Assembly: GCA_020349885.1 (NCBI GenBank)
Contig: CP070701.1
Coordinates: 633,789 to 675,800, forward strand
Length of the DNA: 42,012 nt
Direction: 5' to 3'
From: Acidobacteriota bacterium
GTDB taxonomy: Bacteria > Acidobacteriota > G020349885
Made by a program: the position numbers and the translations under genes. This document shows, in pieces, positions 2,709 through 40,700 of the stretch. Position 1 is the first letter of the stretch; each line of letters begins with the position of its first letter. Below the pieces are notes generated by a model. It was given only the letters and a program-made list of their open reading frames with translations. It did not search any database and had not been told where the DNA came from.

Positions 2709-4514
2709 TTAAGCAAGCGCAGGGGTCTCCCGAGGCGCTTCCCGCTCGCCGAACTGCATCCGGTAGAGCCGCCAGTAGATGCCGCGGCGGCGCATCAGGG
2801 CCTCGTGGCTCCCCTCCTCGCGCAGCGCTCCCTGGTGGAGCACGAGGATGCGGTCGACCGCGCGGATGGTCGCAAGGCGGTGGGCGATGACCAGGGAGGT
2901 GCGGCGGCGGAGCAGCTTGGGGACGGCCGCCTGGATGAGGGCCTCGGTCTCGGAATCGATGCTCGACGTGGCCTCGTCCAGAACGAGAACGGCCGGCTCG
3001 TGCGCAAGGACGCGCGCGAAGGCGAGGAGCTGCCGCTCGCCCGCCGAGAGGTTTACGCCCTGCTCCCCCACGTTCGCGCCGTAGCCCCGCGGGAGGCGCC
3101 CGATGAAGCGGTCCGCCCCCACGGCCTCGGCGGCCCGGCGCACCCTTTCTTCCGAAAAATCTTTTCCGAGCGCGATGTTCTCGCGCACCGAGCCGGCGAA
3201 GAGGAAGACGTCCTGCGGCGCGACGCCGATGTTCCGCCTGAGGAGCGCGAGGTCGAAGCCGCGCACGTCCAGGCCGTCGACGAGCACGGCGCCCTCCGTC
3301 GCGTCGTAGAGGCGGTTGAGGAGCTTCATCAGCGTGGTCTTCCCAGCGCCCGTGTGGCCCACGACGGCAACCTTCTCGCCCGGGGCGACGCGGAACGAAA
3401 CCTCTTTGAGCACCGGCTCCCCGGGCGCGTATGCGAAGGAGACGTTTCGGAATTCCACCTCGCCCCGGAACGCGTGCTCGCGGAGCGGGCTGCGGTCCTC
3501 GGGCAATCTTTCCTCGAGGTCGAGTATGTCGAAAACCTTCTCGCTCGAAGCCAGGGCGTTCTGCATGTCGGCGTATTCCTCTGTAATATCCTGGATGGGC
3601 TCGAAGAACTTGTGAATGTATTCGATGAAGGCCACCAGCACGCCGAGCGTGAGGACCCCGTCGAGGAGCTGGAGGCCGCCGTGCCAGAGAAGGAGCGCGA
3701 GCGCCACCGAGGTTGCGGCCTCGACGATAGCCGAGAACCACGACTCGAAAAAGACGGACCGCAGGTGCACATCGCGGTACGCCGTGTTCCGGGCGGTGAA
3801 TTCCTCGTAGCTTTTCTCCTCGCGCGCGAACGCCTGGACGATGCCCATACCGGTCAGCTGCTCCTGGAGGTAGGAGTTCACATGCGCCACGAGCGTCCGG
3901 AGGGTGCGGTAAATCTTGCGCAGCTGGTGGCGGAAGCGGGCCGCGATGAAAAGAAGCGGCGGAACCACCGCCAGGGCCGCGAGCGCGAGCCGCCAGTTGA
4001 GCCAGAACATGGCCGCGACGATGCCGACGAGCATGAACGCGGCGGCCACCACTCTCACCAGCCCCGAGGAGAACATGTCGCTCAGGTTCTCGATGTCGTT
4101 CGTGACCCGCGTCAGGATGCGCCCCACGGGAGTGCGCGTGAAGTAGGACATGGAAAGTTTCTGAAGGTGGCGGAAAAGGGCCGTCCGCAGTGCGAGCGTC
4201 ACGCGCTGGCCCGTGTACTCCATGACCAGGATCTGCGCCTGCTCGAGAAAAAAGTAAAGAACGATAAGGCCGAAAAACATGGCGACGTAGCGGTGGAGCG
4301 ACGAAAGGGAGCGCGCGGCGATGGCGTGGTCGATGGCCTGCATGATGACGAGGGGCTGGGCGATGCTCACCAGCGCGACCGTCGGCACGAGTGCGAGCGA
4401 AAGGACGAACCAGCCGAGGTGCGGGCGCACGAACGGCCAGAGGCGGCGCGCCAGGCGGACGTCGTATCCGCGCTCCGGGGCCCGCGTTCCGTCGTGCTTC
4501 TCGGAGGAATCCAT
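2709..4514 (-). CDS. ABC exporter half-transporter with the canonical Walker B glutamate
   Basis: A 601-residue type-IV ABC half-transporter: six-helix membrane domain (about residues 25-320) fused to a nucleotide-binding domain. Walker A is GHTGAGKTT, Walker B runs into LDEATSSID with the catalytic Glu present, and the H-loop is SLVIAHR with His present. The signature motif is not the usual LSGGQ but LSAGERQ. It starts one base after the stop of the partner gene, so translation is almost certainly coupled. In heterodimeric exporters of the TM287/288 or BmrCD type, the degenerate site is built from Walker A/B of one subunit and the signature of the other. This protein supplies the deviant signature, and its partner supplies the deviant Walker B and H-loop. 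The substrate cannot be read from sequence; lipid or drug export are family possibilities. Confidence 0.93.
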   Translation of the reverse strand: MDSSEKHDGTRAPERGYDVRLARRLWPFVRPHLGWFVLSLALVPTVALVSIAQPLVIMQAIDHAIAARSLSSLHRYVAMFFGLIVLYFFLEQAQILVMEYTGQRVTLALRTALFRHLQKLSMSYFTRTPVGRILTRVTNDIENLSDMFSSGLVRVVAAAFMLVGIVAAMFWLNWRLALAALAVVPPLLFIAARFRHQLRKIYRTLRTLVAHVNSYLQEQLTGMGIVQAFAREEKSYEEFTARNTAYRDVHLRSVFFESWFSAIVEAATSVALALLLWHGGLQLLDGVLTLGVLVAFIEYIHKFFEPIQDITEEYADMQNALASSEKVFDILDLEERLPEDRSPLREHAFRGEVEFRNVSFAYAPGEPVLKEVSFRVAPGEKVAVVGHTGAGKTTLMKLLNRLYDATEGAVLVDGLDVRGFDLALLRRNIGVAPQDVFLFAGSVRENIALGKDFSEERVRRAAEAVGADRFIGRLPRGYGANVGEQGVNLSAGERQLLAFARVLAHEPAVLVLDEATSSIDSETEALIQAAVPKLLRRRTSLVIAHRLATIRAVDRILVLHQGALREEGSHEALMRRRGIYWRLYRMQFGEREAPRETPALA

Positions 4515-4515
4515 T

Positions 4516-6267
4516 TCAGGTCACCTTCTCCAACTCTTCCTTGAGGCGCTGCTGCTCGTGGAGGCGCGCGTAGAGGCCGCCCCGGCGGAGAAGCTCCGCG
4601 TGGTTTCCCTGCTCGAGGACGCGCCCCTCGTCCAGCACGATGATCAGGTCGGCGTGCCGCACCGTGGAGATGCGCTGCGAGATGATGAGCGTCGTCCCGT
4701 CCCGGCGGAGGGCGCGAAGCTCTTTCAAGATGGAGCTTTCCGTCTCGCTGTCCACGCTGGAGAACGCGTCGTCGAGAATCAGGATGTCCGGCTCGATGAG
4801 GAGGGCGCGAGCGAGCGCCCCGCGCTGGCGCTGGCCGCCGGAGAGCGTGATGCCGCGCTCGCCGACGAGCGTCTCGTAGCCCGCGGGGAAGGCCGCGACC
4901 TCGCCGTCGAAGCGCGCCGTGCGGCACGAGCGGCGCACCTCGTCCATGCCCGCCGAGGCGCGCCCGAAGGCGACGTTCTCGCGCACCGTCATGGAGAAAA
5001 GAAACGCTTCCTGCGGCACGTAGCCGATGCGCCTGCGGAGCTCGCCGAGGGGAAGCTCCGTGACGTCGCGCCCGCCGATGAAGACCGCGCCGGGCGGCAC
5101 CTCGATCAGGCGCGGCAGGGCCTTGGCCAGCGTGGACTTTCCCGAGCCCACCTTCCCGACGACGCCGAGCGTCGAGCCTCCCCGCATCAGGAAAGAAACG
5201 TCCGCGAGGGCGGGGCGGCCGTTGTAGGAAAAGTTGAGATGCCGCGCCTCGACGTCGCCGCGCGCATGCCACGAGGGGTCCGGGCCGTCGGGCGGACTCG
5301 AATCAAGGATGGTCGGCTGAGTGGAGAGAATCTGGTGAAGACGGTCCGAGGCGGCGGCGCCGCGCTGGAGCGTGTTCAGGAGCCACCCGAGCGCCTGCAT
5401 CGGCCAGATGAGAAGGGCCAGGTACGCGTGGAACGCTACGAAGTCACCGGGCGTGATGGCGCCCGCGATGAGGCGCTCGCCGCCCTTCCACAGGACGAGC
5501 AGGATACCGAGTCCTTCGGTAGCAACGAAGGAAGGCGAGAGGAGGGCCTCCTTGCGCGCGAGCGCCATGTTGCGCTTGAGGTACTCCTTCGAGAGGGCCT
5601 CGAACCGCCGCACCCGGAACGCCTCCATCGCGTAGGACTTGACGATCTGTATGCCCGTCAGGTTCTCCTGGAGGTGGTCGCTCAGTTGGGACAGTTTCTC
5701 CTGCGCGCTCCTTGAGCGAACGTAGAGGGGCTTCGAGGTGAGCTTGATGATAAGGATGATGAGGGGAAACGCCGCCATCGCCCAGAGCGTGAGCGTCACG
5801 TCGATGAACGCCATGGACGTGAACGCCATGGTGAAGAGGAACGCGGCGTTCGCCGAATACAGGACGCTGAACCCCGCCACGCCGCGGAGCGCGCGGATGT
5901 CGTTGATGAGGCGCGACATCAGGTCGCCCGTGTTCCACCGCGCGTAGAACGAGGGCGCGAGGGTTTCGAGGTGCCTGAACACGGCGTTCTGGACGTCCAC
6001 CTCGAAGCGGCGCGAGATTCCCAGGATGTAGAGCCTCGACTGCGTGCGTATGATGGCCTGGACTACGGCCCCGCCCATCAGGATGAGGGCGAAGTAGGCC
6101 AGGACGGAGCGCTCAAGGTGGGGGATGCGGAGGCTGTCGATGGCGAGCTTCAGGATCCACGGCATCATGAGCGTGAGGGCGTTCGTCACAAGGAGAAAGG
6201 CCAGCCCGAGCGCGTATTCGCGCCGGTAGCGCAGGAAGAATTCTTTAAACCTCAGGAGGCTTTTCAT
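4516..6267 (-). CDS. ABC exporter half-transporter with degenerate catalytic residues
   Basis: A 583-residue half-transporter with a six-helix membrane domain (about residues 15-315) and a C-terminal nucleotide-binding domain. Walker A is GKVGSGKST near residue 370 and the signature is canonical (TLSGGQRQR). The Walker B segment reads ILILDDAFSSVD, so residue 500 is Asp instead of the catalytic Glu. The H-loop reads LIISQRIS, so residue 531 is Gln instead of His. Both changes are those known from the degenerate site of heterodimeric ABC exporters, so its own site is expected to bind but barely hydrolyse ATP. It begins 37 bp after oppB and ends one base before the partner, giving a tightly coupled pair. 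Confidence 0.93.
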   Translation of the reverse strand: MKSLLRFKEFFLRYRREYALGLAFLLVTNALTLMMPWILKLAIDSLRIPHLERSVLAYFALILMGGAVVQAIIRTQSRLYILGISRRFEVDVQNAVFRHLETLAPSFYARWNTGDLMSRLINDIRALRGVAGFSVLYSANAAFLFTMAFTSMAFIDVTLTLWAMAAFPLIILIIKLTSKPLYVRSRSAQEKLSQLSDHLQENLTGIQIVKSYAMEAFRVRRFEALSKEYLKRNMALARKEALLSPSFVATEGLGILLVLWKGGERLIAGAITPGDFVAFHAYLALLIWPMQALGWLLNTLQRGAAASDRLHQILSTQPTILDSSPPDGPDPSWHARGDVEARHLNFSYNGRPALADVSFLMRGGSTLGVVGKVGSGKSTLAKALPRLIEVPPGAVFIGGRDVTELPLGELRRRIGYVPQEAFLFSMTVRENVAFGRASAGMDEVRRSCRTARFDGEVAAFPAGYETLVGERGITLSGGQRQRGALARALLIEPDILILDDAFSSVDSETESSILKELRALRRDGTTLIISQRISTVRHADLIIVLDEGRVLEQGNHAELLRRGGLYARLHEQQRLKEELEKVT

Positions 6268-6304
6268 AAAGGTGCCGCGACCCTGTCCGCCTTGGGGGCC
6301 GTTC

Positions 6305-7222
6305 CTACTCCAGCCTTATCCTCGGGTCGAGCCAGGCGTACGCGAGGTCCACGAGCAGGTTAAAGATAAGAAGAAGCGTCGCGAAAACGAGGACGACGCC
6401 GATGACGAGGAGGTAATCGCGGTTCAGGGCGCCCTGCGTGAAAAAGGTGCCGAGGCCGGGGATGTCGAATATCATCTCGACCACGATGCTCCCGGAAAGA
6501 AGGTTCGCCGTCGCGGGGCCGAGGAACGAGACGACGGGGATGAGGCCCGACTTGAGCGCGTGCTTGGCGATGACGGTGCGGGCGGGAAGGCCCTTGGCAC
6601 GCGCGGTGCGGATGTAGTCCTGCTGGAGCACCTCGAGCATGCCGCCGCGCGCGAGGCGGGCGAAGTAAGCCGCGTAGGGCGCGCCCGTCACTACGGCGGG
6701 AAGGACGAGGTGCGAGAGCCGCCCCCAGCCGGCCACGGGGAACCAGTCGAGGTAGTAGACGAACGCGATGATGAGCACGGGCCCGAGGACGAAGTTCGGA
6801 ACGGATACGCCCACCATGGCGAGCGTCATGGAGCCGTAGTCGAGGGCCGTGTTCTTCTTGACGGCGGCGAGGACGCCCGCGCCCACGCCGAGCGTCAGGG
6901 CGAACATCAGTCCGAGCATGCCGAGCGTCATCGAGACGGGAAAGGCCTGCAGGATAATCTCGTTCACGCTGCGGTTGAGGTAGCGGAAGGAGGGGCCGAG
7001 GTCGCCGTGGACGAGGTCGCGCATGTACATTCCGTATTGGACGACGAGGGGCCTGTCGAGACTGTACTTGGCCTCGATGTTCTTCTGAATCTGGGGCGGG
7101 AGCACCCGCTCCTGGTCGAAGGGGCCGCCGGGCACCGTGCGGAGGATGAAGAAGCACGCCGTGGCCGTCACGAACAGGATGAGCGGCAGGAGCAGGAGGC
7201 GTCTGGTGGCAAAGACGAGCAT
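6305..7222 (-). CDS. oppB: Oligopeptide/dipeptide ABC transporter permease (OppB/DppB type)
   Basis: A 305-residue inner-membrane permease. It has an N-terminal helix followed by the family segment RTVPGGPFD and five further hydrophobic helices. The cytoplasmic EAA-type coupling loop (DYIRTARAKGLPARTVIAKHA) sits near residues 200-225, and the end is WLDPRIRLE, typical of OppB/DppB. It forms half of the translocation pore for peptides or related solutes. The binding protein lies 97 bp upstream on the same strand. The expected second permease (OppC) and ATPases (OppD/OppF) are absent; the next genes are exporter halves. The missing subunits must be encoded elsewhere, or this is a relic. The oppB name reflects the family; the substrate is not shown. 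Confidence 0.9.
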   Translation of the reverse strand: MLVFATRRLLLLPLILFVTATACFFILRTVPGGPFDQERVLPPQIQKNIEAKYSLDRPLVVQYGMYMRDLVHGDLGPSFRYLNRSVNEIILQAFPVSMTLGMLGLMFALTLGVGAGVLAAVKKNTALDYGSMTLAMVGVSVPNFVLGPVLIIAFVYYLDWFPVAGWGRLSHLVLPAVVTGAPYAAYFARLARGGMLEVLQQDYIRTARAKGLPARTVIAKHALKSGLIPVVSFLGPATANLLSGSIVVEMIFDIPGLGTFFTQGALNRDYLLVIGVVLVFATLLLIFNLLVDLAYAWLDPRIRLE

Positions 7223-13495: not shown

Positions 13496-13502
13496 GGAGG
13501 AA

Positions 13503-13565
13503 CCAATGACCGATGACCAATGACCGATGACCAATGACCGATGACCAATGACCGATGACCGATGG
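13503..13565. repeat. Heptamer tandem array CCAATGA/CCGATGA
   Basis: Nine consecutive heptamers, the first eight alternating perfectly between CCAATGA and CCGATGA (a 14-bp superunit four times), followed by CCGATGA-like CCGATGG. It begins eight bases after the ATP-grasp stop. Reverse frames read VIGHWS/VIGHRS repeats and should not be annotated as a gene. Confidence 0.95.
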
Positions 13566-13663
13566 TAGGTTCGTTCCTAGGCCGAAATTGAAAAATCCTT
13601 TATTTTCGCGCACTTCGTAGGTTCGTTTCGTAATATAGGGGGGGAGGGGGGTGCATCCTCCCC

Positions 13664-13692
13664 ATGACCAATGACCAATGACCGATGACCGA
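13664..13692. repeat. Second short heptamer array
   Basis: ATGA followed by CCAATGA, CCAATGA, CCGATGA and a partial CCGA: the same heptamers as at 13503-13565, separated from them by about 100 bp of the mosaic block. Confidence 0.85.
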
Positions 13693-13763
13693 ATCCTTGC
13701 ATACTCCATACGACATACTCCTCCATCCTCTCCATGTATGCCGTTTCCGCGATTTGTCAAGGA

Positions 13764-13799
13764 TTTTGCCGGAGTTGCCGCTTTTGCCGCTTTTGCCGG
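13764..13799. repeat. 9-bp tandem repeat, four units
   Basis: Units TTTTGCCGG, AGTTGCCGC, TTTTGCCGC, TTTTGCCGG; the reverse complement of the array at 1711-1755. Confidence 0.85.
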
Positions 13800-14811: not shown

Positions 14812-15810
14812 ATGGCTGGTGGGGTATCGCCAATGACAAAGAAACCGCGAAGACGCCACAAAAAGAAAACAGAGTTGATATTTCAACGAAATATTCTCGA
14901 AGTCGAGAATTATCACGATACAGTTGAGAAATGTGCTCAGAAGATACGGACAAAAACAATCAAGCCGTACGCTCAGGTATTTGCAAGGAACGTAGAAGAC
15001 TTAATTATGCTGTGTGGTCTCCCAGTTGTCTTGTTATACACGGGAGTGTTCGAAACAAGGCATACGGCTTTTATACCTGGGGCGATTCTTAAGATTAAAA
15101 AGAATTTAGGAAAAGGGAAGCCCCTCACAAAATCAGAGCACAGACGAATCCACCAAGAAGCGGATCGACAACTTAGGAAATACAGTGAAAGTGCGGCGGG
15201 AAAAGAAGCGATTAAGAAAGAAGTAGAGTTCAAGATAGAACATATTTTGAATATGTCGGACATGCGGCAAGCGGTCATAAATCTATTGCGCGCTATAACG
15301 GTAACATCGTGGACAATCTTTGAAGCTCTTTCTAAGGATATTTGGATTGCGGCCTTAAATTCTAATTGTGATATTCTAGCTAAACGCGCAATGAAGATTC
15401 TAAAGGAAAGTAGTCCTTCTGGTGACATTACAAGCAAGACGATTTCCACAGATTTGCTCGCGAAACACGGATTTGATGTTAGAAATTGTATGGGCACTTT
15501 ATTGAGCGGGAAATTTGATTTTACCGGAGTAACCGGCATCAAGAAGGCTTATGTTTACGCTTTCGATAACAAAAAGATGTTCGAACGAATATTCGATGTT
15601 AAGGGCCTATCTCATCTAGAAGCTTCTCGACACGTGATTGTGCACAACGCAGGAATAATAGATGAAAATTATCTTAGACGCACTAAACGAAGATTAAAGG
15701 TTGGGAAAGCGCTCCCTTTAAATTCTAGGATCGTTTCCAGGCACGTGAAAAAGGCTATTGATTCAGGGTGTCAACTTCTCAAGGCAGTGGACAAGTGCAT
15801 GCCCCGATAG
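14812..15810 (+). CDS. Putative HEPN-domain protein (RiboL-PSP/MAE_18760-like)
   Basis: A 332-residue, Lys-rich, mostly helical protein in a low-GC segment. The first ~40 residues are very basic (KKPRRRHKKKTE). The C-terminal half resembles HEPN proteins: the helix TSWTIFEALSKDIWIAALNS around residues 165-184, and ASRHVIVHNAGIIDENYLRR near residue 271. In the latter, Arg273 and His278 form the R-x4-H motif that is the catalytic signature of many HEPN ribonucleases. RiboL-PSP-type HEPN proteins carry a similar R...VHN.G..D segment. By inference it may be an RNase in a defence or toxin context. No antitoxin-like small gene is adjacent. AGAGGA lies 8 bp before the ATG; a second ATG at 14833 is possible. 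Confidence 0.55.
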   Translation: MAGGVSPMTKKPRRRHKKKTELIFQRNILEVENYHDTVEKCAQKIRTKTIKPYAQVFARNVEDLIMLCGLPVVLLYTGVFETRHTAFIPGAILKIKKNLGKGKPLTKSEHRRIHQEADRQLRKYSESAAGKEAIKKEVEFKIEHILNMSDMRQAVINLLRAITVTSWTIFEALSKDIWIAALNSNCDILAKRAMKILKESSPSGDITSKTISTDLLAKHGFDVRNCMGTLLSGKFDFTGVTGIKKAYVYAFDNKKMFERIFDVKGLSHLEASRHVIVHNAGIIDENYLRRTKRRLKVGKALPLNSRIVSRHVKKAIDSGCQLLKAVDKCMPR

Positions 15811-15831
15811 TCTCCGCTCCTTGACTCAATA

Positions 15832-15840
15832 CCCCCCCCC
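15832..15840. repeat. Homopolymer of nine C
   Basis: Nine consecutive C residues between the HEPN-like gene and udg4 (convergent). It falls outside any coding frame, so is more likely a slippage-prone spacer than a phase switch. Confidence 0.8.
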
Positions 15841-15891
15841 AAAGCACCCCTGAAATCGATGTCCCGCCCTAACAAGCTGGCGGGCAAGCTC

Positions 15892-16566
15892 TTATCTGCC
15901 CGCCCTTTCCCGGAGCTTCGCCATGACCTTCTTGACGTCCTGCCAGAGCTCGCGCTTCTTGGCCGGGTTGCGCAGGATGTAGGCGGGGTGGAAGGTGGGC
16001 ATCAGGAGGCGGCCGCGGAAGTCGCGGAAGCGGCCGCGGATGCGGGTGATGGGGAGCGACGCCCCGAGGAGCGCGTTCGCGGCGGGGGCGCCCAGGGCCA
16101 CGACGACCTTGGGGTCCACGATCTCTATCTGCTTGTGGAGGTACGGCATGCAGGCGTCGATCTCGTCGGGGCGCGGGGTGCGGTTCCCCGGGGGGCGGCA
16201 CTTGACGATGTTTGCGATGTAGACGTCGGCGCGGCGCATCTTCATCCCGTCCTCGATTATTTTCGTAAGCAGCTGCCCGGCCCGGCCCACGAAGGGGATT
16301 CCCCGGCGGTCCTCCTCGGCGCCCGGGCCCTCGCCCACGAACATCAGCTCCGCCCCGGGCCCGCCGTCCGCGAAGACCGTCTGCGCGCGTCCCTCGGCGT
16401 GGAGGCGGCACTTCGTGCACGTCGCGACGCAGCTCGCCCACTCGGCCAGCACCTCGCCCTTGGGACGGGACGGAGCCCCCGCCGCACGTGCCGCGCCCGC
16501 GCCCAGGCGGATTTCCCCGATCCCCAAATCCTGGTAGAACCGCAGCCAGTCCCGGAGCTCGTCCAT
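15892..16566 (-). CDS. Family-4 (Fe-S) uracil-DNA glycosylase
   Basis: Removes uracil from DNA to start base-excision repair. The 224-residue protein shows the family-4 set: four iron-sulfur Cys (C50-x2-C53, then C123 and C139 with 15 residues between), motif A GEGPGAEEDRRGIPFVGRAGQLL near residue 78, NIVKCRPPGNRTP near residue 119, and motif B TFHPAYILRN near residue 191. It lacks the DinG/DnaQ fusions seen in some relatives and has a short N-terminal extension rich in Ala and Gly. It lies 30 bp downstream of the distal FG-GAP gene on the same strand, and the copied segment ends in that gap. Confidence 0.93.
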   Translation of the reverse strand: MDELRDWLRFYQDLGIGEIRLGAGAARAAGAPSRPKGEVLAEWASCVATCTKCRLHAEGRAQTVFADGGPGAELMFVGEGPGAEEDRRGIPFVGRAGQLLTKIIEDGMKMRRADVYIANIVKCRPPGNRTPRPDEIDACMPYLHKQIEIVDPKVVVALGAPAANALLGASLPITRIRGRFRDFRGRLLMPTFHPAYILRNPAKKRELWQDVKKVMAKLRERAGR

Positions 16567-16596
16567 GGGTGCCGCGGGGAGAGCCGGCGGGCCCCG

Positions 16597-19500
16597 CTAC
16601 GTCTCCTGCGTGATGGTCAGAAGGGTGTTGGACGCGGCGCCCTTCACGACCTGGCTCGTCCCGTTGGGCCACGTCACCCGGACCTCGTCCGCCCTCGTGT
16701 TCCGCCCGAGGCCGAAATAGAGAATCTCCGGCTCCTGCGAGAAGAACCCCAGGCCGCACGTGACGTACTTCCTGATTACCAGGTCCCCGGCCCGCACGAC
16801 GACCTCCGCGCCCACGCCGTTCCGGTTGTCCTCGGTGCCCCGGAGCCGGAGCCTCAGCCAGCGGTTGCCGCCCTTCTGCTCGTTCCGGAGGACCGTCGCC
16901 CTGTCGTGGAAGTTGTTGACGACCATGTCGAGGTCGCCGTCGTCGTCCATGTCGAAGCTCGCGAAGCTGCGGCTCGTCCCCATGAAGGACTCGGGCGAGC
17001 CCGCGTCCATGTGATAGTAATAGCCGTTCTGGTTCAGGAAGAGCTTGTTGCGGTTCACGTGCGCGTCCGGCCTCCACCCGTTGCACAGGTACATGTCGGG
17101 GTCGCCGTCGTTCTCGTAGTCGAAGAACCCGCCGTGCCAGCACCAGCCGTCCTCGCCCGGCTCGAACCACCAGTTGGCCTTGTCCACGAAGAATTTTCCT
17201 CCCTTGTTGATGAAGAAACGGCAGTCCTCCATGTAGCGGATCCCCTGGAGGATGGCGTCCGAGATGTTGGAAAAGGTCTCGCCCCGCGGAAAGCGGTACT
17301 TGATTCTGGTGGTGTAGAGGTCGATGTTCGAGACGTACATGTCAGGAAAACCGTCCGCGTTCGCGTCCACGAAGCTCACGTTCATGCTGTGGCCCCGGTC
17401 GTACGTGAGGGCGTCCGACGTGATGTTTCGAAAAGTCCCGTCCCCCAGGTTCTCGTACAGGGCGTTCGCGCCGAAATCGTTCGAGATGTAGAAGTCCTCG
17501 TCGCCGTCCCGGTCGAAATCGAACGCCGCCGCCGCCTGGGCCCAGCCCGTGTCCGCCACGCCGGCCCTCTCCGAGACGTCGGCGAACTTCAGGCCGCCCC
17601 TGTTCTCGAAAAGCATGTTCGCGTATCCGTTCCGGCCCCCGAGCGTGGGATTGATCTTCTTCTCCCACGGCCCGTAGCCGCTCACGAACAGGTCCAGGTC
17701 GCCGTCCCTGTCGTAATCGAAAAAGAACGACATCCCGGGCATGGGAGGGGCCGCCTCGACCCCCGACGCCTCGACGTCGGTGAATTTTCCCTCCCCGTCG
17801 TTCTCCCAGAGCCGCGACGCCCCGAGGGCGTTAGCCAGGAAAAGGTCCAGGTCCCCGTCGTTGTCCACGTCGGCGAACAGGGCCGAGCGGCCCTCGGACG
17901 AGTCGGCGACGCCCGCCTCCGCGGTGACGTCCCGGAATTTTCCGTCCCCGAGGCCCTTGTAGAGCTTGTTGTCCCGGCCGCTCACGAGGTAAACGTCCAT
18001 CCGGCCGTCGCCGTCCACGTCGCCCACGGCGAGGCCGCCGCCGGCGAACTTGGGCTTGCCCTCCCCCGACAACTGCGTGTTCTCGGTCTTCGTGTTGGAC
18101 CTGTGATGAAAATCAATTCCCGAACCCCGCGTGACGTCGGTGAAGAGGGGAGGAGGATAGGTCCGGAGAAGGGCCTCTTTTTCGAGCTTGCGCTTCTCGC
18201 CCCACGGCGGCTGCCTGATTTCCGGGACCAGGATTAAGTCTCTCATCCTCGTGAGCTCCGCGAGGTCCTTGTCCGTGATCAGGGTTTTTCCTCCGGCCTT
18301 GGCCAGCTCCCTCGCTCCCACCAGGTAGTAGACGGCCAGGATGGACACGGCCTCGGAGATGAACTCGCCCGCAAACGGCGTCATGGGCTTCCCCTGTCCC
18401 TGCTGCCAGACCTCGGCGAGGACCTGCCAGTGAAGGGAGTTGTCGCGCAGGGCGTCCATGTCGCGCTCGATAAGGATAATCGTTTTGAGCTCGCTGAGGT
18501 CCACGTCTATGTGCGGGTCCGCATACGGCGTGCTGTCGATCCGGCCGTAGGGGCCGAACGTAAACTCCACGTCGCCGTTCAGGAGCAGGCGGTAGGGAAG
18601 CTTGCGCTGGATTCGCTCGTAGTCCTTCTCGTCGATCAGGGGCCCCCGGACGTCGTCCGCAAGGTCGATGTAGAATTTTCGAAGCTCCTCTACCAGATAC
18701 TCGACGCCCCGGTCGTCCACGGGAACAATCTTGAGTGCGTTGATGAATCGCTCGATGTTCTCCTCGATCGCCGCGGTGTTGAACCGCTTGAGAGATTTGA
18801 TCTTCTGGTGAATCATCTTCTCCGTCAGGTCACGGAGAAATTCGACCTCCCGCTCTCCAAGCTGTCTGGTCTCCGCAAAGCCGCCCTCCCAGAGCGTGGG
18901 CTCCGGGGTCGGCGGGGCCTCCAGGCCGTGCCGCTCCGCCACGCGCTTGAGCGCCTCGCGGACGTGCCAGCCTTCCACGCTGGGATTCCTCTCCTCCCGG
19001 GCTATGCGCGAGGACTCCCGCAGCAGCTCGAGCGCGAGGGACGAGACGATGCCCGAGAGCTCCACGGCGGCCTCCTCGCCGAGCGGCTTCAGCAGCACGG
19101 GGCGCTCCTCGTAGAGGTCCATCCCGCACACCGCGTCCTGAATGACGGAGAGGATAATCCGCCAGTGCTCGCTCGTCGAGCGGTAGTCCGAAAAATCCTT
19201 GAACCCCAATTCCTCGAGCCGCACCTGCGCCTCCTCGATTTGGTCGGCGGTCGGCCGGTCGAAATCGCCCCGGACGACGCCGGCGAGGTCCTCGGGGGTC
19301 ACGTGCGCCCCATCGGCCCCGAGGGAGGCTTTTTCCCAAACCCGGTCGGCAAGAACCTGCATGGCATGAATTTTTACGAGCACCGCGGTCGGGGTGTGCA
19401 CCCTCTGGGCCATGAAGTTGTCGAGCTTGCAGAAGCTGGACCAGCAGACGACGTCCCTTTCGCTCTCGAGGCGGTCAATCTGGGTGAAGACGAGGTCCGC

Positions 19501-19635
19501 CATCGCCTCCAGGCTGGCCGGCACGGGAGACTGCGACCCCTTTGAGCAGCTCCAGCCGAACCATGCCGTGGCCGAAAGAAGCAGCAAGACGACCAGCTTC
19601 GCGGAAAGCCTGCGCTTGGGTGCCATCGGAGCCAT
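16597..19635 (-). CDS. Large secreted FG-GAP/VCBS protein with ASPIC/UnbV domain (paralogue 1)
   Basis: 1,012 residues. A basic N-terminus and hydrophobic helix (about residues 8-28) end at WSCSKG, a signal peptide with an imperfect lipobox, so export or surface anchoring is likely. Residues ~30-480 form an unrecognised helical region with a conserved CWSSFCKLDNFMA segment. From ~500 come integrin-like repeats with at least seven calcium-loop motifs (DVDGDGRMD, DVDNDGDLD, DYDRDGDLD, DFDRDGDED, DANADGFPD, DYENDGDPD, DMDDDGDLD). The last ~95 residues are an ASPIC/UnbV domain (NRNGVGAEVVV...VTWPNG). This is the CRTAC1-like family, probably surface adhesion or binding; the ligand is unknown. It is a tandem paralogue of the gene at 19889-22933: 82 of the last 94 residues are identical. 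Confidence 0.88.
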   Translation of the reverse strand: MAPMAPKRRLSAKLVVLLLLSATAWFGWSCSKGSQSPVPASLEAMADLVFTQIDRLESERDVVCWSSFCKLDNFMAQRVHTPTAVLVKIHAMQVLADRVWEKASLGADGAHVTPEDLAGVVRGDFDRPTADQIEEAQVRLEELGFKDFSDYRSTSEHWRIILSVIQDAVCGMDLYEERPVLLKPLGEEAAVELSGIVSSLALELLRESSRIAREERNPSVEGWHVREALKRVAERHGLEAPPTPEPTLWEGGFAETRQLGEREVEFLRDLTEKMIHQKIKSLKRFNTAAIEENIERFINALKIVPVDDRGVEYLVEELRKFYIDLADDVRGPLIDEKDYERIQRKLPYRLLLNGDVEFTFGPYGRIDSTPYADPHIDVDLSELKTIILIERDMDALRDNSLHWQVLAEVWQQGQGKPMTPFAGEFISEAVSILAVYYLVGARELAKAGGKTLITDKDLAELTRMRDLILVPEIRQPPWGEKRKLEKEALLRTYPPPLFTDVTRGSGIDFHHRSNTKTENTQLSGEGKPKFAGGGLAVGDVDGDGRMDVYLVSGRDNKLYKGLGDGKFRDVTAEAGVADSSEGRSALFADVDNDGDLDLFLANALGASRLWENDGEGKFTDVEASGVEAAPPMPGMSFFFDYDRDGDLDLFVSGYGPWEKKINPTLGGRNGYANMLFENRGGLKFADVSERAGVADTGWAQAAAAFDFDRDGDEDFYISNDFGANALYENLGDGTFRNITSDALTYDRGHSMNVSFVDANADGFPDMYVSNIDLYTTRIKYRFPRGETFSNISDAILQGIRYMEDCRFFINKGGKFFVDKANWWFEPGEDGWCWHGGFFDYENDGDPDMYLCNGWRPDAHVNRNKLFLNQNGYYYHMDAGSPESFMGTSRSFASFDMDDDGDLDMVVNNFHDRATVLRNEQKGGNRWLRLRLRGTEDNRNGVGAEVVVRAGDLVIRKYVTCGLGFFSQEPEILYFGLGRNTRADEVRVTWPNGTSQVVKGAASNTLLTITQET

Positions 19636-19775
19636 GCTACCGCTTATAAGGGGGGAGCGTCAAATGCGCCCGCGCGCCCGCGAATGGTCTCGGCGAGATG
19701 GGCTGAGAATTAATTTCGACGCCCGATATGTTTCCAATTCTCCGGAACAACCGGCTCTTCAGGTAAGGCGGGAAC

Positions 19776-19882
19776 TCGACGAGCGCCCAAAAAATCTTTT
19801 ATATTTTACATTCGGGGTAAACGGAGCGCAGGCATGGTAAGCCAGCTTGACCCGCGGAGCTCCGGGAAGCGAATCGGCGGGC
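19776..19882 (+). pseudogene. Decayed duplicate of the hrcA promoter and first codons
   Basis: Between the two paralogues lies a clear but damaged copy of the hrcA upstream region and start. The promoter-like TCGACG, 18-bp spacer and TATATT (19776-19805) corresponds to TTGACG-17-TATATT of hrcA. ACATTCGGGGTAAACGGAG is shared exactly. An ATG at 19834 is followed by GGTA, a 6-bp insertion, then TTGACCCGC-GAG as in the hrcA start. Similarity stops near 19870-19882, where the downstream flank of the FG-GAP gene begins. It cannot encode HrcA and is a scar of the tandem duplication. Its -35 box and the CIRCE-like right arm have decayed. Confidence 0.8.
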
Positions 19883-19888
19883 CCCGCG

Positions 19889-22800
19889 CTACGTCCCCTG
19901 GGCGATGGTCACAAGGGTGTTGGACGCGGCGCCCTTCACGACCTGGCTCGTGCCGTTGGGCCACGTCACCCGGACCTCGTCCGCCTCGCCGTTCCGCCCG
20001 AGGCCGAAGTGCAGAATTTCCGGCTCCTGCGACAAAAACCCGAGCCCGCACGTGACGTGCTTTTTTATTACCAGGTCCCCGGCCTTCACAACGACCTCCG
20101 CCCCCACGCCGTTTCGATTGTCCGCCGTGCCCCGGAGCCGGAGCTTCAGCCAGCGGTTGCCGCCCTTCTGCTCGTTTCGCAGGACCATCGCCTTGTCATG
20201 ATAATTGTTGACGACCAGGTCGAGGTCCCCGTCGTTGTCCATGTCGAAGCTCGCGAAGCTGCGGCTCGTCCCCGCGAAGGATTCGGGCGAACCCGCACTC
20301 ATGTGATAGTAGTAGCCGTTGTGGAGCAGGAAGAATTTGTTCCGGTACATGTGTATGCTTTTTCTCCACCCGTTGGCCACGTACATATCGAAGTCGCCGT
20401 CGTTCTCGTAGTCGAAGAACCCGGCATGCCAGCACCAGCCTTCCTCTCCGGGCTCGAACCACCAGTTGATCTTGTCCACGAAGAACTCCCCCTTTACATT
20501 CACATACAGGCGATTGTCCTCCGTGTAGCGAATCCCCTGAAGAATCGCGTCCGTGACGTTCGAAAACGTTTCGCTTCGTGGAAAGCGGTATTTGACTTTC
20601 GAGGAATAGAGGTCAATGTTTGAGACGTACATGTCCATGAACCCGTCCGCGTTCACGTCCACGAAACTTACGTTCATCCCGTGGCCCCGGTCGAACGGAA
20701 GGGCCTCGTGGGAAATGTCGCGAAACGTTCCGTCTCCCAGGTTCTTGATCAGGACGTTCGCGCCGAAATCGTTGGCAACGTAAATATCCTCGTCGCCGTC
20801 CCGGTCGAAATCGAACGCCGCCGCCGCGTGACCCCAGCCCACGTCCCCGACGCCTGCCTTCTCCGTCACGTCGGCGAACTTCCAATTCCCTCTGTTTTCA
20901 AAGAGTTTGTTCGGGTAGCCGTTGCGGGCGCCGAGCGTCGGCATGGTGCCCCGATCCCACGGCCCGTAGCCGGCCACGTACAAGTCCAGGTCGCCGTCCT
21001 TGTCGTAATCAAAAAAGAACGCTGACCCCGGCACCGAAGGCGGCTTAATCCCCGATCCTTCGGCCACATCCGTAAAATGCCCATCCCCATCATTTTTCCA
21101 AAGCCGCGACGCTCCGAAGACATTCGCCAGAAAAAGGTCCAAATCCCCGTCGTTGTCGATGTCGGCAAACAAGGCCGCGCGGCCTTCCGACGAATCGGCG
21201 ACGCCTGCTTTCTTCGTAATGTCGCGGAACGTTCCATCGCCGTTATTTTTGTAGAGCTTGTTGTCCCGGCCGCTTACGAGGTAAACGTCCATCCGGCCGT
21301 CGCCGTCCACGTCACCCACCGCGAGGCCGCCGCCCGAATACTTGGGCTTGCCGTCTCCCGTCAATTGCGTGTCCTCGGTCTTTGAGTGGGACTCGTGACG
21401 AAAATCAATTCCCGAAGCCTTCGTGACGTCCGTGAAGAGGGGAGGAGAATAGATTCGGAGAAGGGCCTCTTTTTCACGCTTGCGGTCCTCGCCCCAAGAC
21501 GGCTCCATGACTTCCGGGGGCACGAAGTGGTCTTTCATCTTCGTGAGATCCGCAAGGTCCCCGTCCGTGACCACGGATTTGTCCGCGGCTCTGGCCAGCT
21601 CCCTCGCTCCCACCAGGTAGTAGGTGGCCAGGATGGACACGGCCTCGGAAATGAACTCGGCCGCAAAGGGCGTCATGGGCTTTCCCTTTCCCTGCTGCCA
21701 GACCTCGTCGAGGATCTGCCAGTGAAGGGCGTTGTCGCGCATCGCGTCCATATCACGCTCAATTAGGGTAATGGTTTTGAACTCGCTGAGGTCCACCTTG
21801 AGGTATGGATTCGGTCCCCGCTGGCCCTCCGTCCAGCCGTAGGGCCCAAAGGTCAGCAGCACGTCGCCGTTTAGGAGAAGGCGGTAGGGAAGCCCGCGGT
21901 GGATTCGCTCGTAATCCTTTTCGTCAATCAACCCCCCCGGACAGTCGGCCGCAAGGTCGATGTAGAATTTTCGAAGCTGCTCGACCAGGTAGTCGACGCC
22001 CCGCTCGTCCACGGGAACGATCGAAAGGGCGTTGATGAATCGCGTGACGTTCTCCTCGACCGCCCCGGCGTTGAACCGCCGGAGGGATTTGATTTTCTGG
22101 TGAATCATCTTCTGCGTCAAGGTACGGAGAAATTCGGTCTCCCGCTCTCCAAGCTGTTTGGTCTCCGCGGCCCCGCCCTCTCGAATCGTGGGCTTCAGGG
22201 TTGAGGGAACCGCTAAACCGTGCTGTTTCGCCGTGCGCTTGAACGCTTCGCGGACGTGCCAGCCCTCCACGTGAGTGCTCCTGTCCTCTCGGGCCATGCG
22301 CGAGGACTCCTGCAGCAGCTCGAGCGCCAGGGACGAGACGACGCCTGAGATCTCCACGGCGGCCTCTTCGGCAAGCGGCTTCAGCAGCACCGGACGCTCC
22401 TCGTAAAGGTCCATCCCGCAGACGGCGTCCGCAATTACGGAGAGAAGAATTCGCCAGTGCTCGCTCGTGGTGCGGTAGTCCGAAAAATCGCTGAACCCGA
22501 TTTCTTCGAATTTTCCCTCCATTCCTTGGATGGGAAAGGGTGGCAGGTCGTGAAAATCGCCCTTTTGGACGACGCGGGCGAGGTCTTCCGGGGTCACGTG
22601 CGTCCCCTGGGCTTCAAGGGAAGCTTTTTCCCAGATCTGGTCGGCCAGGATCTGCATGGCATGAATTTTCACGAGCACGGCAGTCGGGGAGTGCGGTTTC
22701 CGGGCCATGAAGTTATCAAGCTTGCAGAAGCTGGACCAGCAGACGACGTCCTTTCGGCTCTCAAGGTAGTCAATCTGGTCGAAAATAAGGTCTGTCATGG

Positions 22801-22933
22801 CCTCCAGGCTGGTCGGCACGGGAGACAGCGACCGCTCCCTAGAGCAGCTCCAGCCGAACCATGCCGTGGCCGAAAGAAGCAACAAGACGCACAGCGTCGC
22901 GGAAAGCCTGCGCTTGGGTGCCATCGGAGCCAT
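19889..22933 (-). CDS. Large secreted FG-GAP/VCBS protein with ASPIC/UnbV domain (paralogue 2)
   Basis: 1,014 residues, with the same architecture as its neighbour: signal peptide ending WSCSRE, a ~450-residue unrecognised N-terminal region with CWSSFCKLDNFMA, the seven DxDxDGxxD-type calcium loops from about residue 530, and a C-terminal ASPIC/UnbV domain. Differences from paralogue 1 cluster in patches, for example around residues 120-145 (KGDFHDLPPFPIQGMEGKFE here). The calcium loops and the C-terminal domain are nearly unchanged. That suggests the beta-propeller is under constraint and parts of the N-terminal region less so. It is divergent from hrcA, with 184 bp between the two starts. 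A TTGACA lies at 22962-22957 on the minus strand upstream of the start, but I see no convincing -10. Confidence 0.88.
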   Translation of the reverse strand: MAPMAPKRRLSATLCVLLLLSATAWFGWSCSRERSLSPVPTSLEAMTDLIFDQIDYLESRKDVVCWSSFCKLDNFMARKPHSPTAVLVKIHAMQILADQIWEKASLEAQGTHVTPEDLARVVQKGDFHDLPPFPIQGMEGKFEEIGFSDFSDYRTTSEHWRILLSVIADAVCGMDLYEERPVLLKPLAEEAAVEISGVVSSLALELLQESSRMAREDRSTHVEGWHVREAFKRTAKQHGLAVPSTLKPTIREGGAAETKQLGERETEFLRTLTQKMIHQKIKSLRRFNAGAVEENVTRFINALSIVPVDERGVDYLVEQLRKFYIDLAADCPGGLIDEKDYERIHRGLPYRLLLNGDVLLTFGPYGWTEGQRGPNPYLKVDLSEFKTITLIERDMDAMRDNALHWQILDEVWQQGKGKPMTPFAAEFISEAVSILATYYLVGARELARAADKSVVTDGDLADLTKMKDHFVPPEVMEPSWGEDRKREKEALLRIYSPPLFTDVTKASGIDFRHESHSKTEDTQLTGDGKPKYSGGGLAVGDVDGDGRMDVYLVSGRDNKLYKNNGDGTFRDITKKAGVADSSEGRAALFADIDNDGDLDLFLANVFGASRLWKNDGDGHFTDVAEGSGIKPPSVPGSAFFFDYDKDGDLDLYVAGYGPWDRGTMPTLGARNGYPNKLFENRGNWKFADVTEKAGVGDVGWGHAAAAFDFDRDGDEDIYVANDFGANVLIKNLGDGTFRDISHEALPFDRGHGMNVSFVDVNADGFMDMYVSNIDLYSSKVKYRFPRSETFSNVTDAILQGIRYTEDNRLYVNVKGEFFVDKINWWFEPGEEGWCWHAGFFDYENDGDFDMYVANGWRKSIHMYRNKFFLLHNGYYYHMSAGSPESFAGTSRSFASFDMDNDGDLDLVVNNYHDKAMVLRNEQKGGNRWLKLRLRGTADNRNGVGAEVVVKAGDLVIKKHVTCGLGFLSQEPEILHFGLGRNGEADEVRVTWPNGTSQVVKGAASNTLVTIAQGT

Positions 22934-23057
22934 ACTACCGCTTAAATGGGCAGCGTGTCAAACGCGCCCGCGCGCCCGCGGATGGTTTTGAAAATTCTTG
23001 GGTGCCCGTTACATTTCCAATTCTCCGGAACAACCCGTTTCTCGGGAAGGGAGGAGC

Positions 23058-23086
23058 TTGACGAGCGTTCAAAAATCCTTTATATT
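23058..23086 (+). promoter_or_regulatory. Sigma-70-type promoter of hrcA
   Basis: TTGACG (23058-23063), a 17-bp spacer and TATATT (23081-23086); five of six consensus bases match in each box. The spacer contains AAAAATCCTT, part of a 13-mer also found in the intergenic mosaics. Confidence 0.7.
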
Positions 23087-23114
23087 TTGACATTCGGGGT
23101 AAACGGAGTGTAAG
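23087..23114 (+). promoter_or_regulatory. Weak CIRCE-like inverted repeat overlapping the hrcA ribosome site
   Basis: TTGACATTC (23087-23095), 10 bases, GAGTGTAAG (23106-23114). Each arm matches six of nine bases of the HrcA operator TTAGCACTC-N9-GAGTGCTAA, but the spacer is one base long. It sits right after the -10 box and covers the GGAG ribosome site, where an autoregulatory operator would work. In the decayed duplicate upstream the right arm has changed to GAGCGCAGG. Confidence 0.35.
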
Positions 23115-23117
23115 CAT

Positions 23118-24194
23118 ATGGTAATTGACCCGCAGAGTCCCGCGAAGCAGGTTTCGGCCGGGATTCGTTCAAGTGAGACGTTCGAGGAACGCGGTGAGCG
23201 CATCCTGGGGGACGCGGTCGAAGCCTACATCCAGAGCGGCCTCCCGGTGGGCTCGCGCCGTCTGGCGCGCCGCGGCCGCTACGGTCTCAGTGCGGCCACG
23301 GTGCGCAACGTCCTGAGCGACCTCGAACAGGAAGGCTATCTTTCGAAGCCCCATACATCGGCGGGGCGCGTTCCCACGGACAAGGGCTACCGCTTCTACG
23401 TGAACCGGATCCTTGCCCGGGGCGGGGTCGAGCCGATCTCCGTGGAAGGCCGCGAGGACTGGCTCCACCACTCACAGAACCGGGAAACGCTTCTCGCGCG
23501 GGCGTCGCGCCTCCTGGCGGATCTGACGCACCAGGTGGGCATGGTGCTCGCGCCGAACGTCGCCGACGCGCCGCTCAAGCACATGGAATTTCTTGCAATC
23601 TCCCCCCGAAGAGTTCTGGCCGTTTTCGTTGCGGGAAGCGGCCTCGTGCACCACAAGGCATTCGACGTGCCGGAACCCTATTCCGCCGAGGACCTCCAGC
23701 GCGCGGGAAGGTTTCTGAAGGAGGAGTTTGCCGGCCTGACGCTGCGGCAGATGCGCGGGCGCCTCCTCGAAAAAATGGCCGAAGACCGCGCGCGGTACGA
23801 CACGCTTCGCCGGCGCGCCCTGGCGCTCGGGCAGAGGTGCCTCGAGGACGAAACCGAAAGCTCCGACCTCTACGTGGAGGGCACGGAGAACCTTCTCGAC
23901 GGCGGAGAAATCGAGGTCGAGGAAATGCGCGCGCTTCTGGCCACGTTTGAGGAGAAGAAGCGAATCGTCGAGCTCCTGGGCGCATGCATAGCCCGGCCGG
24001 GCAAGGCGGTCTTTATCGGAACCGAAAATCCCGACGAGCCCTTCCGGTGCTGCTCGCTCGTGCTGGTGCCCTACTGTTCGCCGCAGGGGGAGCGCGGCGC
24101 GCTCGGGATCGTGGGGCCGACGCGCATGGAATACTCCAAGGTCCTGGGGACGGTGAGCGGCGTCGCCCACCTGGTGAGCAAAGCGATGGCGTAG
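23118..24194 (+). CDS. hrcA: Heat-inducible transcription repressor HrcA
   Basis: Represses class-I heat-shock operons by binding CIRCE operators, with GroEL as its usual folding cofactor. 358 residues. The winged-helix N-terminal domain carries VEAYIQSGLPVGSRRLARR near residue 35 and LSAATVRNVLSDLEQEGYLSKPHTSAGRVPTDKGYRFYV at about 57-95, both diagnostic. The central and C-terminal parts end with LVLVPY...GALGIVGPTRMEYSKVLGTVSGVA, the conserved HrcA tail. About 20 residues precede the usual HrcA start. The ATG at 23118 is kept because GGAG lies 9 bp before it and the duplicated fragment preserves this ATG. dnaK follows after 149 bp; grpE and dnaJ, common neighbours, are absent. Confidence 0.95.
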   Translation: MVIDPQSPAKQVSAGIRSSETFEERGERILGDAVEAYIQSGLPVGSRRLARRGRYGLSAATVRNVLSDLEQEGYLSKPHTSAGRVPTDKGYRFYVNRILARGGVEPISVEGREDWLHHSQNRETLLARASRLLADLTHQVGMVLAPNVADAPLKHMEFLAISPRRVLAVFVAGSGLVHHKAFDVPEPYSAEDLQRAGRFLKEEFAGLTLRQMRGRLLEKMAEDRARYDTLRRRALALGQRCLEDETESSDLYVEGTENLLDGGEIEVEEMRALLATFEEKKRIVELLGACIARPGKAVFIGTENPDEPFRCCSLVLVPYCSPQGERGALGIVGPTRMEYSKVLGTVSGVAHLVSKAMA

Positions 24195-37741: not shown

Positions 37742-40700
37742 ATGGCTCGTTCGTGGGCGTTATTCCTAGTCGGCATGCTTGCATGGATCTGGGCAAGCGG
37801 CCTCGCCTTCCCGGCAGACCTCTACGTGGACGCCGCGTTCGGCAACGATGTCAACGACGGGCTTTCGTGGGGGACGGCGAAGGCTACCGTTGGGAACGCC
37901 TTGACCGCGGCCGACGGAACGCCGGGGGCCGACACAATCTACGTGGCGGAAGGGACTTATCAAGAAACGATGAATTTCTGGTTCGGCCCTGACGATGTCT
38001 CCCTGATTGGTGGCTTTCCAGCAGGGGGCGGGGCGAGGGACCTCGCAGCTCATCCAACGGCCGTGTCGCCTCCGAGCGGCTCACCCTTTGAGGCTTGGTA
38101 TTCGGCCAACGTCTCCCTCGACGGATTCATTCTTGAGAACGGCCGCCACAATGTGATTGCGGATTCGACGAACATCACCGTAAGAAATTGCATCATCCGA
38201 AACAACACGGATCAAGCCATCATCGGGAGGACAGAGGCCTGCGGGGGTATGTGCTTTGGAGTGTGTATTCAGATTGTAGGGTGGCCGTCTTGGGGATATG
38301 GCGGGGGACTTTACGCATACAACTCATCCGTAGAAATTGTCAACAATCTTATTGTTGACAACACCATAACCCTGTACGATCCGGCTCCTTGTTCCCCCGA
38401 GTGGGGCCCTAATCCGCCGGGTGGCGAGGGCGCGGGGATGTGCCTATCGAATGTTACGGGCTTGGTAGCGAACAACACGATCGCCTCGAACGACAACCTT
38501 GTTCCTCCTTTCTATCAAGTCTGGATGATACCGGGCTACCGATCCGGCGGCGTGTACCTCGAAAACGTTTCCGCATCCCTTGTGTTCCGCGACAACATTA
38601 TGTGGGGCAACGTCGGTTTCAATTATTGCGAGCCCGCCGGGCTTTTACAGCCCGTCTACTGCGACTCGGGAAGTTTGTTGGGCGATTTCTCGGGGCCGGG
38701 CAACATTCGGCTCAACCCCCTCTTTGCCACCGGCCCCGGCGGGGACTATTACCTGTCGCAGACGGCTGCGGGGCAGGGCTCCGATTCGCCGTGCCTGGAT
38801 GCGGGAAGCGACACGGTGGCCGCCGTCGGCATGACGGACACGACGACGCGCACGGACCGGGTGGAGGACGCCGGAACGGTGGACATGGGATATCACGAAA
38901 TCTTGGCGAGTATCCCTGATTTAGAATACACTGCCCACAGCTTCACCGATTGCGGGAACGTCGACGGCTTCGCGGACCCGGGCGAGACGATCACCCTCAG
39001 CGTCACGGCTGAGAACACCGGCAACGCGGACGCTTTCAACGTAAGCGGAGTGCTTTCCACCATAACGCCGGGGGTTACGGTGTTCGTGAACAACGCCGCG
39101 TTCCCCGACATCCCCGAGGGCTTGACCGGAGCGTCGCTCACGCCGTACCGGTTCGTCGTGGACCCGGGCGTGCCCTGCGGGACGCTGATTGACTTCGCGC
39201 TCGATCTTACCTACCAAGACAATTTGGGAAATCCCCTCACCAGCGCCGAGTCGTTCCAGGTGCCGGTGGGCCAGCCCCAGCCGCCGCTTACACTCCTCCT
39301 TACGGACTTCGAGGACTGCGCGGACCCGCCGACGTCGGTCTGCCCGCCGTGTGTTCCCGTAAATGGAGACTGGACGGTCATCAACAACGGCAACAAGGTC
39401 GGCTGGACGCACGCCGGCCCGGGCTGCCCGTCGACCTGCGAGTGGGGGCTCTTCCCGACGAACTACTACATTTGCGACACCACCTGCCCGGGCTGGTCGA
39501 CGGTTCACAACGAGGAGCTCATCTCGCCGGTGATTGACACCTCGGCGGCGGCGGCGGTGACGCTCCGATTCGACCACGACTACTACAACTATTCGATGCC
39601 CACGACTTCGGACTTGAACGTGAGGAGCTCGCTCACGGGCGGTGCCTGGGTCACGCTGAGGGATTTTGCTGATTGTTGGCTTTGGTGTAGTTGGGATCCG
39701 TGGATGTGCGACAATTGCATCACCGGACCCATTGCGCTCGACGCCACGGCGCAGTGCGCGGGCGCCGCGGACTGCCAGTTTGAATTCCACCAGGTGACGA
39801 ACTACTACGACTCCTGGTGGTGGGCCGTGGACAACGTGGCGGTGGAGGCGCCCGTTGCTCCGGTGTGCAGCCCGGCGGCACCACCCATAGCCTACGATAC
39901 GGGCTTCGATCCGACCACGACGCTCGCGCAGGTCTGCGGCGACGGCGACCTTATCGTGGAGCCGGGCGAGGAGTGGCAGGCGACGGTGCAGCTCATTAAT
40001 TCCGCGGCATGCACCGTCAACAACGTCAAGGCGGATTTAACGGTAAACCCGGGCTCGGCGGTGGCCGCTGCCGTTTGCAACAATCCGGGCGATTATGGAA
40101 ACATCCCCGCGGGTGGCACGGCGCAATTCACCTATTCGTTCGTCGTGGACACTGGGGCTGTCTGCATCAACGACATCACGTTCGACGTAACCGGCATTGT
40201 CTCGGACGAGGGGGCGTATCCCGGCGAGATTCCCGCGTTCGCGGTGCAGGTGGGAGCGCTCGCTCCCGGTCCGACGGAGCCCGGGGCGCAGGCGACGGAC
40301 CCGCTGACGGAGAAGAACGGAACAATAAGCTCGGACTTTACGCCTGCGTTCACGATTCCCGGCGCTGCTAAGTCCGCCACACTTTCCTACGTGCTTTCCG
40401 GGGGAACCGACTTGGTGAACTGCGTCGAGGTGGCGCTAGTGGACCCGTTGGGGACGGCGACGGTGGTGAAGCCCCTGGGCGCGGCGGACGCCAATCCCTA
40501 CGACGTGACCGGGCTCTACACGGGGGCGGGCACGTATCAGCTTCAGCTGACGGAAGCGGGAAAGGGCTGCGGCGGGGGAGGCAGCGCGACCCTGACGGCG
40601 GGGACGCTGAGTGTAACGGCTCCGGACGTTACGGAGTGCGACGTGAGCGCGTGCTCGTGCCCGTGCCCGACGGCGACGATTTCCGAATCGGCCTGCGATT

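Follow-up and report, generated by a model that had tools for sequence, protein, structure and literature searches.

Genes and features of the locus

The analysed window, a stretch of 42,012 nucleotides, corresponds to positions 633789-675800 of the single-contig, 2.40-Mb genome of an Acidobacteriota bacterium. The gene order at the locus is UDG - copy A - hrcA stub - copy B - hrcA, with dnaK directly after hrcA on the right side. The left neighbour, a family 4 uracil-DNA glycosylase (UDG; 15892-16566, minus strand), and the intact hrcA (358 aa; 23118-24194, plus strand) were recognised by TIGR00758 and TIGR00331, respectively, both above cut-off. Copy A (16597-19635, 1012 aa as called) and copy B (19889-22933, 1014 aa as called) are both located on the minus strand, and their products share 76% amino acid identity. 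In each of them the Pfam models FG-GAP_3, as repeats, and UnbV_ASPIC, at the C-terminus, scored above the gathering threshold. This is the domain order of the CRTAC1-like proteins, from which the present proteins differ in their approximately 500 N-terminal residues (motif DVVCWSSFCKLDNF), which matched no Pfam or NCBIfam model. The duplicated gene encodes a large, secreted-type protein, and the sole solved relative found was cartilage acidic protein 1 (9etn). Rfam gave no match in the window.

To the left of the locus, a 332-aa ORF without confident family match (14812-15810) has a GC3 of 0.41 as compared with about 0.82-0.93 around it, and was possibly acquired recently. Several other repeats are also present in the window. 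A 123-bp unit in tandem (5-267; 2.1 copies, 80%) probably represents protein-coding repeats, and a 326-bp direct repeat of 77% identity (38943-39268 and 41667-41992) was seen when the window was searched against itself by BLASTN. An intergenic repeat, built of ~51-bp tandem units (ACGAACCTACCAAGTGCGCATGAATAAAGGATTTTTTAATT...) together with a ~75-bp block, occurs at 1726-1990, inverted at 13563-13798, and also at 1927-2083, with 51 matches across the genome, mostly partial; beside this dispersed repeat lies a tandem array of ACCAATGACCGATG (13502-13564; 4.5 copies at 97%).

Extent of the duplicated unit

The same BLASTN self-comparison matched 16585-19870 with 19875-23148 at 81.4% identity over 3309 columns, which confirmed the statement of a preliminary description that the two ~3-kb FG-GAP/ASPIC genes are tandem copies. 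Global alignment of the two units gave identity at 82.9% of 3249 aligned bases. The repeat is ~3.28 kb long and comprises one FG-GAP/UnbV_ASPIC gene of ~1,010 aa together with the divergent promoter region and ~13-16 codons from the start of hrcA; read on the minus strand, the left unit carries the copy A gene, the promoter region and an hrcA stub, and the right unit the copy B gene, the promoter region and the start of hrcA itself. The units are adjacent and in the same orientation, their intergenic flanks are repeated, and the ends of the unit are joined at a novel junction at ~19871-19887. These features support, as the best reading of the sequence, a head-to-tail tandem duplication in which the divergent promoter and the beginning of hrcA would have been copied as well. 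An assembly artefact was rejected, as a difference of 17-19% between the copies and a genome in one contig speak against it.

The region between the copies (19636-19876) was compared with the hrcA promoter and start (22934-23156), and the local alignment score was 169, while the best of 500 shuffles reached 26; the resemblance of 19640-19882 to 22930-23150, on which the preliminary description depended, is thus real. The coding stub alone (19834-19876, plus strand), an ATG and about 14 codons, scored 28, a value matched by 0 of 5000 shuffles. It reads ATG GTA AGC CAG CTT GAC CCG CGG AGC TCC GGG AAG CGA ATC GGC GGG, where hrcA starts with ATG GTA ATT GAC CCG CAG AGT CCC GCG AAG CAG GTT TCG GCC GGG; the two are in frame, the stub having a 6-base (2-codon) insertion. 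No HrcA domain is present in the stub, since it ends at about residue 14 and the TIGR00331 match begins at HrcA residue 23. The only long match of the spacer in the 2.40-Mb genome was the hrcA promoter (E 2e-34, 74%), and a 43-bp piece matched also upstream of a paralogue, C, described below. The identity of the spacer to its parent was 76-83%, varying with the alignment used; as MAFFT put the -10 box and the start codon out of register, a gap-penalised pairwise alignment was preferred. Two blocks, of 22 and 19 bases, are the same in the spacer and the hrcA promoter region. The 22-mer, TTTCCAATTCTCCGGAACAACC, was considered as a genome-wide operator and rejected, as it occurs only in the two spacers.

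The spacer had been described as a degraded copy of the promoter and the first hrcA codons. It is indeed such a copy, but it is not specially degraded: when the synonymous divergence of the two genes (pS 0.34) was set against that of the spacer, the latter was no more diverged than silent sites. Since these divergences are about equal, one event explains both the genes and the spacer.

The duplication junction

The left parental breakpoint falls in the 30-bp gap between the stop codon of copy A and UDG (16567-16596), and similarity to the spacer does not extend leftwards beyond 16585. The right breakpoint lies inside hrcA, at codon ~13-16. At the junction (19871-19887) hrcA codon ~14 runs directly into the sequence that follows the stop codon of the FG-GAP gene. 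The sequences are GAATCGGCGGGCCCCGCGCTACG at the junction, AGCCGGCGGGCCCCGCTACG in the left parent and TTTCGGCCGGGATTCG in the hrcA parent. The left end and the junction both contain CGGCGGG, and hrcA has CGGCCGGG at the corresponding place; the ends are strongly diverged. A short CGGC(C)GGG-like sequence was likely shared by the junction and both parents, the length of this overlap being approximate because the junction is ~20% diverged, and it suggests that the ends were joined by illegitimate recombination. The GGCGGGCCCCGC(GC)TACGT shared after both genes, from which the right edge of the unit had been placed, exists (about 16587-16602 and 19876-19894), but it belongs to the start of the unit and marks the junction at ~19871-19887.

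In bacteria, duplications joined at short homology or at none are known, and homology-independent joins have been discussed, with 36 of 104 Acinetobacter junctions cited as such (PMC4432121). The 9.2-kb patAB duplication of Streptococcus pneumoniae resembles the present one in that the copies lie head-to-tail and one new junction puts neighbour sequence beside a copy (PMC4432121). That duplication is young and unstable and raises expression by promoter switching, whereas the one described here is old (~18% diverged), and the copied neighbour promoter faces away from copy A and runs antisense into copy B.

The same arrangement of ends would result if a larger duplication, including all of hrcA and perhaps dnaK, had been trimmed later to the stub by deletion. 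Deletions within tandem duplications are common, but such a history needs two events, hrcA codon ~14 meets the FG-GAP downstream sequence directly with a short shared sequence at that very place, and the genome has a single hrcA match and no further copy of the spacer. We consider this course of events extremely unlikely, and a single duplication of the ~3.28-kb unit is preferred.

Of the claim that both the unit and the direction of the event can be read, the first part holds, to ~10 bp at both ends. The second does not: any tandem duplication of the unit gives the same layout, therefore the position of the stub tells which copy kept which neighbour (UDG in case of copy A, hrcA in case of copy B) and not which copy is the older or 'original'.

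Relatives

The single-copy state was not seen in the genomes taken as relatives, all of which shared only the phylum with the source genome, in a set of 396 genomes from this phylum, or in two scans of GTDB contigs; these gave only distant homologues (best segments 24-46% identical), none of them close to hrcA. Same-phylum hrcA genes were found at about 26-48% identity, and none of the 29 same-phylum hrcA loci examined had an FG-GAP gene within 1.5 kb. Full-length FG-GAP relatives, about 30-37% identical, were found in MAGs of Myxococcales, other 'Deltaproteobacteria', Planctomycetota and Dadabacteria, with no hrcA in the surrounding DNA examined. Since no relative showed the single-copy state, the polarity is given by geometry alone. 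In a Myxococcales MAG (JALTMC010000931.1, 1231-3282 and 5920-8679) two relatives of the FG-GAP family stand side by side, and the family may duplicate repeatedly.

Promoters, start codons and the fate of the stub

A candidate hrcA promoter, TTGACG-17-TATATT, is located at 23058-23086 (plus strand). Its counterpart in the stub, TCGACG-18-TATATT (19776-19805, plus strand), retains the -10 box and has lost one -35 consensus base and the 17-bp spacing. The putative promoters of copy A (TTGACG-18-TAGCAT, 19634-19663) and copy B (TTGACA-18-TAGTAT, 22932-22961), both on the minus strand, abut the start codons. They are part of a 33-bp block, TTTGAC...CGGTAG(C/T)AT(G/A)G, which the genome contains in three places, in front of A, B and C and nowhere else. 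In case of A and B the -10 box of the block overlaps the called ATG and ends 7 bases before Met-4, which makes Met-4 the likelier start (ATG at 19626 and 22924, respectively). In case of C it ends 6 bases before the ATG, with no competing start there; this gene is directly behind a lon-like gene (named from its translation), the stop codon of which overlaps the -35 box. Judged from the promoter positions, the mRNAs of A, B and C are probably leaderless; -10 boxes adjoining ORFs have been described for Deinococcus-Thermus (PMC12340547).

No CIRCE operator was found in the window within 3 mismatches. Elsewhere in the genome two CIRCE-like sites stand just before groES-groEL (names from translations) and a further one at another place, thus the duplicated region probably carried no HrcA operator. 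The idea that the stub represents a CIRCE-bearing, HrcA-controlled promoter was rejected on the same ground. Here hrcA-dnaK is without a CIRCE site, while groES-groEL has two CIRCE-like ones.

The stub could have been kept for a function, if a live hrcA promoter produced an antisense transcript covering the 3' end of copy B, or if a short peptide were made. The TATATT -10 box is intact and the promoter site scores 9/12, the frame of the stub stays open for 73 codons, continuing antisense into copy B, and the 22- and 19-base blocks are unchanged. However, the -35 box and the spacing moved off consensus, the identity of the spacer is at about the silent-site level or slightly above, the CIRCE operator is absent, and the 73-aa frame lies mostly antisense to a GC-rich gene, a setting in which open frames arise easily. 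A retained function is therefore unlikely.

Divergence of copies A and B

The comparison of A and B gave pS 0.34 (dS 0.46), pN 0.13 (dN 0.15) and dN/dS 0.32. Both copies look coding, and at this dN/dS and a dS of ~0.46 both have been under purifying selection for a long time. Their codon use is not the same, GC3 being 0.89 in A and 0.78 in B, as compared with about 0.82-0.93 in clearly coding neighbours. Outside the conversion-like tract described below, 33 of the 43 third-position changes unique to B were G/C to A/T and none the reverse, while among the 26 unique to A the corresponding numbers were 9 and 7. From these changes and the GC3 contrast, A stays genome-like in codon use and B drifts towards AT. 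Antisense RNA entering B from a live stub promoter, and absent for A, might have aided a divergence of expression, so that B lost its GC3 preference and A retained it, although we hold this to be very unlikely.

Dispersed paralogues and the mosaic structure of copy A

Two dispersed paralogues, absent from the preliminary description, lie 1.15 Mb away: C (genome positions 1810579-1813602) has 67% amino acid identity to B, and D (1798604-1801612) 62-64%. In the coordinates of the extracted piece, C (15577-18609, minus) and D (3431-6691, plus) flank in convergent orientation a ~9-kb aminotransferase-like/aldehyde-dehydrogenase-like block, which contains two adjacent aminotransferase-like ORFs of 446 aa, apparently another tandem pair.

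Over the whole gene, sites shared by A and B outnumber those shared by A and C (424 and 261). In codons 600-799 the relation is reversed, with 88 A+C sites against 25 A+B sites, and 0 of 2000 shuffles gave such a segment, although the shuffles treat sites as independent, which they are not fully. An independent fragment scan delimited an A-C tract at codons 579-799 (89% identical, 0/2000 permutations) and also a short A-B tract at codons 17-66. The former, at alignment codons ~580-800, corresponds to 17406-18063 of the window (minus strand, ~0.66 kb), where A is closer to C than to B. In the trees codons 0-580 favoured (A,B) by 59 log units, while codons 580-800 favoured (A,C), with an AU p value of 0.007 against (A,B) from fewer replicates than recommended; the boundaries used for the trees were picked after the scan, and only the shuffles correct for that.

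In this conserved FG-GAP part of the gene, convergent selection on the propeller core might also have made A and C alike. The signal persists, however, at silent third positions, where in codons 600-799 A equals C at 27 and B at 7, and B does not approach D in the tract. Convergence thus seems highly doubtful. A conversion of B by D as the cause of the mosaic was rejected, since the tract brings B no closer to D.

Copy A is a mosaic with a bounded tract, the phylogeny of which conflicts with the rest of the gene, as expected of ectopic gene conversion. In the tract the third-position divergence of A-B is 0.35, up to the B-C level (0.32), and that of A-C is down to 0.16; since A-B rises while A-C falls, a transfer from C into A is favoured, and the mosaic is best read, with the direction taken from these distances, as gene conversion of A by C. 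Bacterial paralogues are well known to undergo gene conversion (PMC13061034). In the PE/PPE/ESX genes of Mycobacterium tuberculosis, too, short tracts are copied between family members at separate loci (PMC13061034); in contrast to those, the present case was read from phylogenetic mosaicism in one genome and not across isolates, and outside the tract a difference of ~29% separates donor from recipient over most of the gene.

Proposed history and its meaning

The ancestral order would have been UDG - FG-GAP/ASPIC gene - hrcA, the last two being divergent. One head-to-tail duplication, with its limits in the gap behind the FG-GAP stop codon and at hrcA codon ~13-16, gave the present arrangement, as the alignment shows; the two ends would have been joined where they had a few GC-rich bases in common. 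Each FG-GAP gene would have kept a full promoter and each old neighbour its context, so that nothing would have been broken. Purifying selection then acted on both copies over a long time (dS ~0.46). The hrcA promoter of the stub lost a -35 consensus base and the spacing of 17 bp. At a later time homologous recombination with paralogue C would have replaced ~0.66 kb of copy A. We consider this whole history, from a single ~3.28-kb duplication through long purifying selection to the later C to A replacement, very probable.

The duplicated gene pair is a known phenomenon, bacterial tandem duplication, and no new kind of system. The duplication itself is old and ordinary; its junction is unusually legible and it was followed by a conversion tract. 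It illustrates cleanly how a gene fragment left at the junction can make an old bacterial tandem duplication legible, and how synonymous divergence can give a misleading date when an unlinked copy has acted as conversion donor. The three paralogues, with their common 33-bp promoter abutting the start codon, provide a small testable model.
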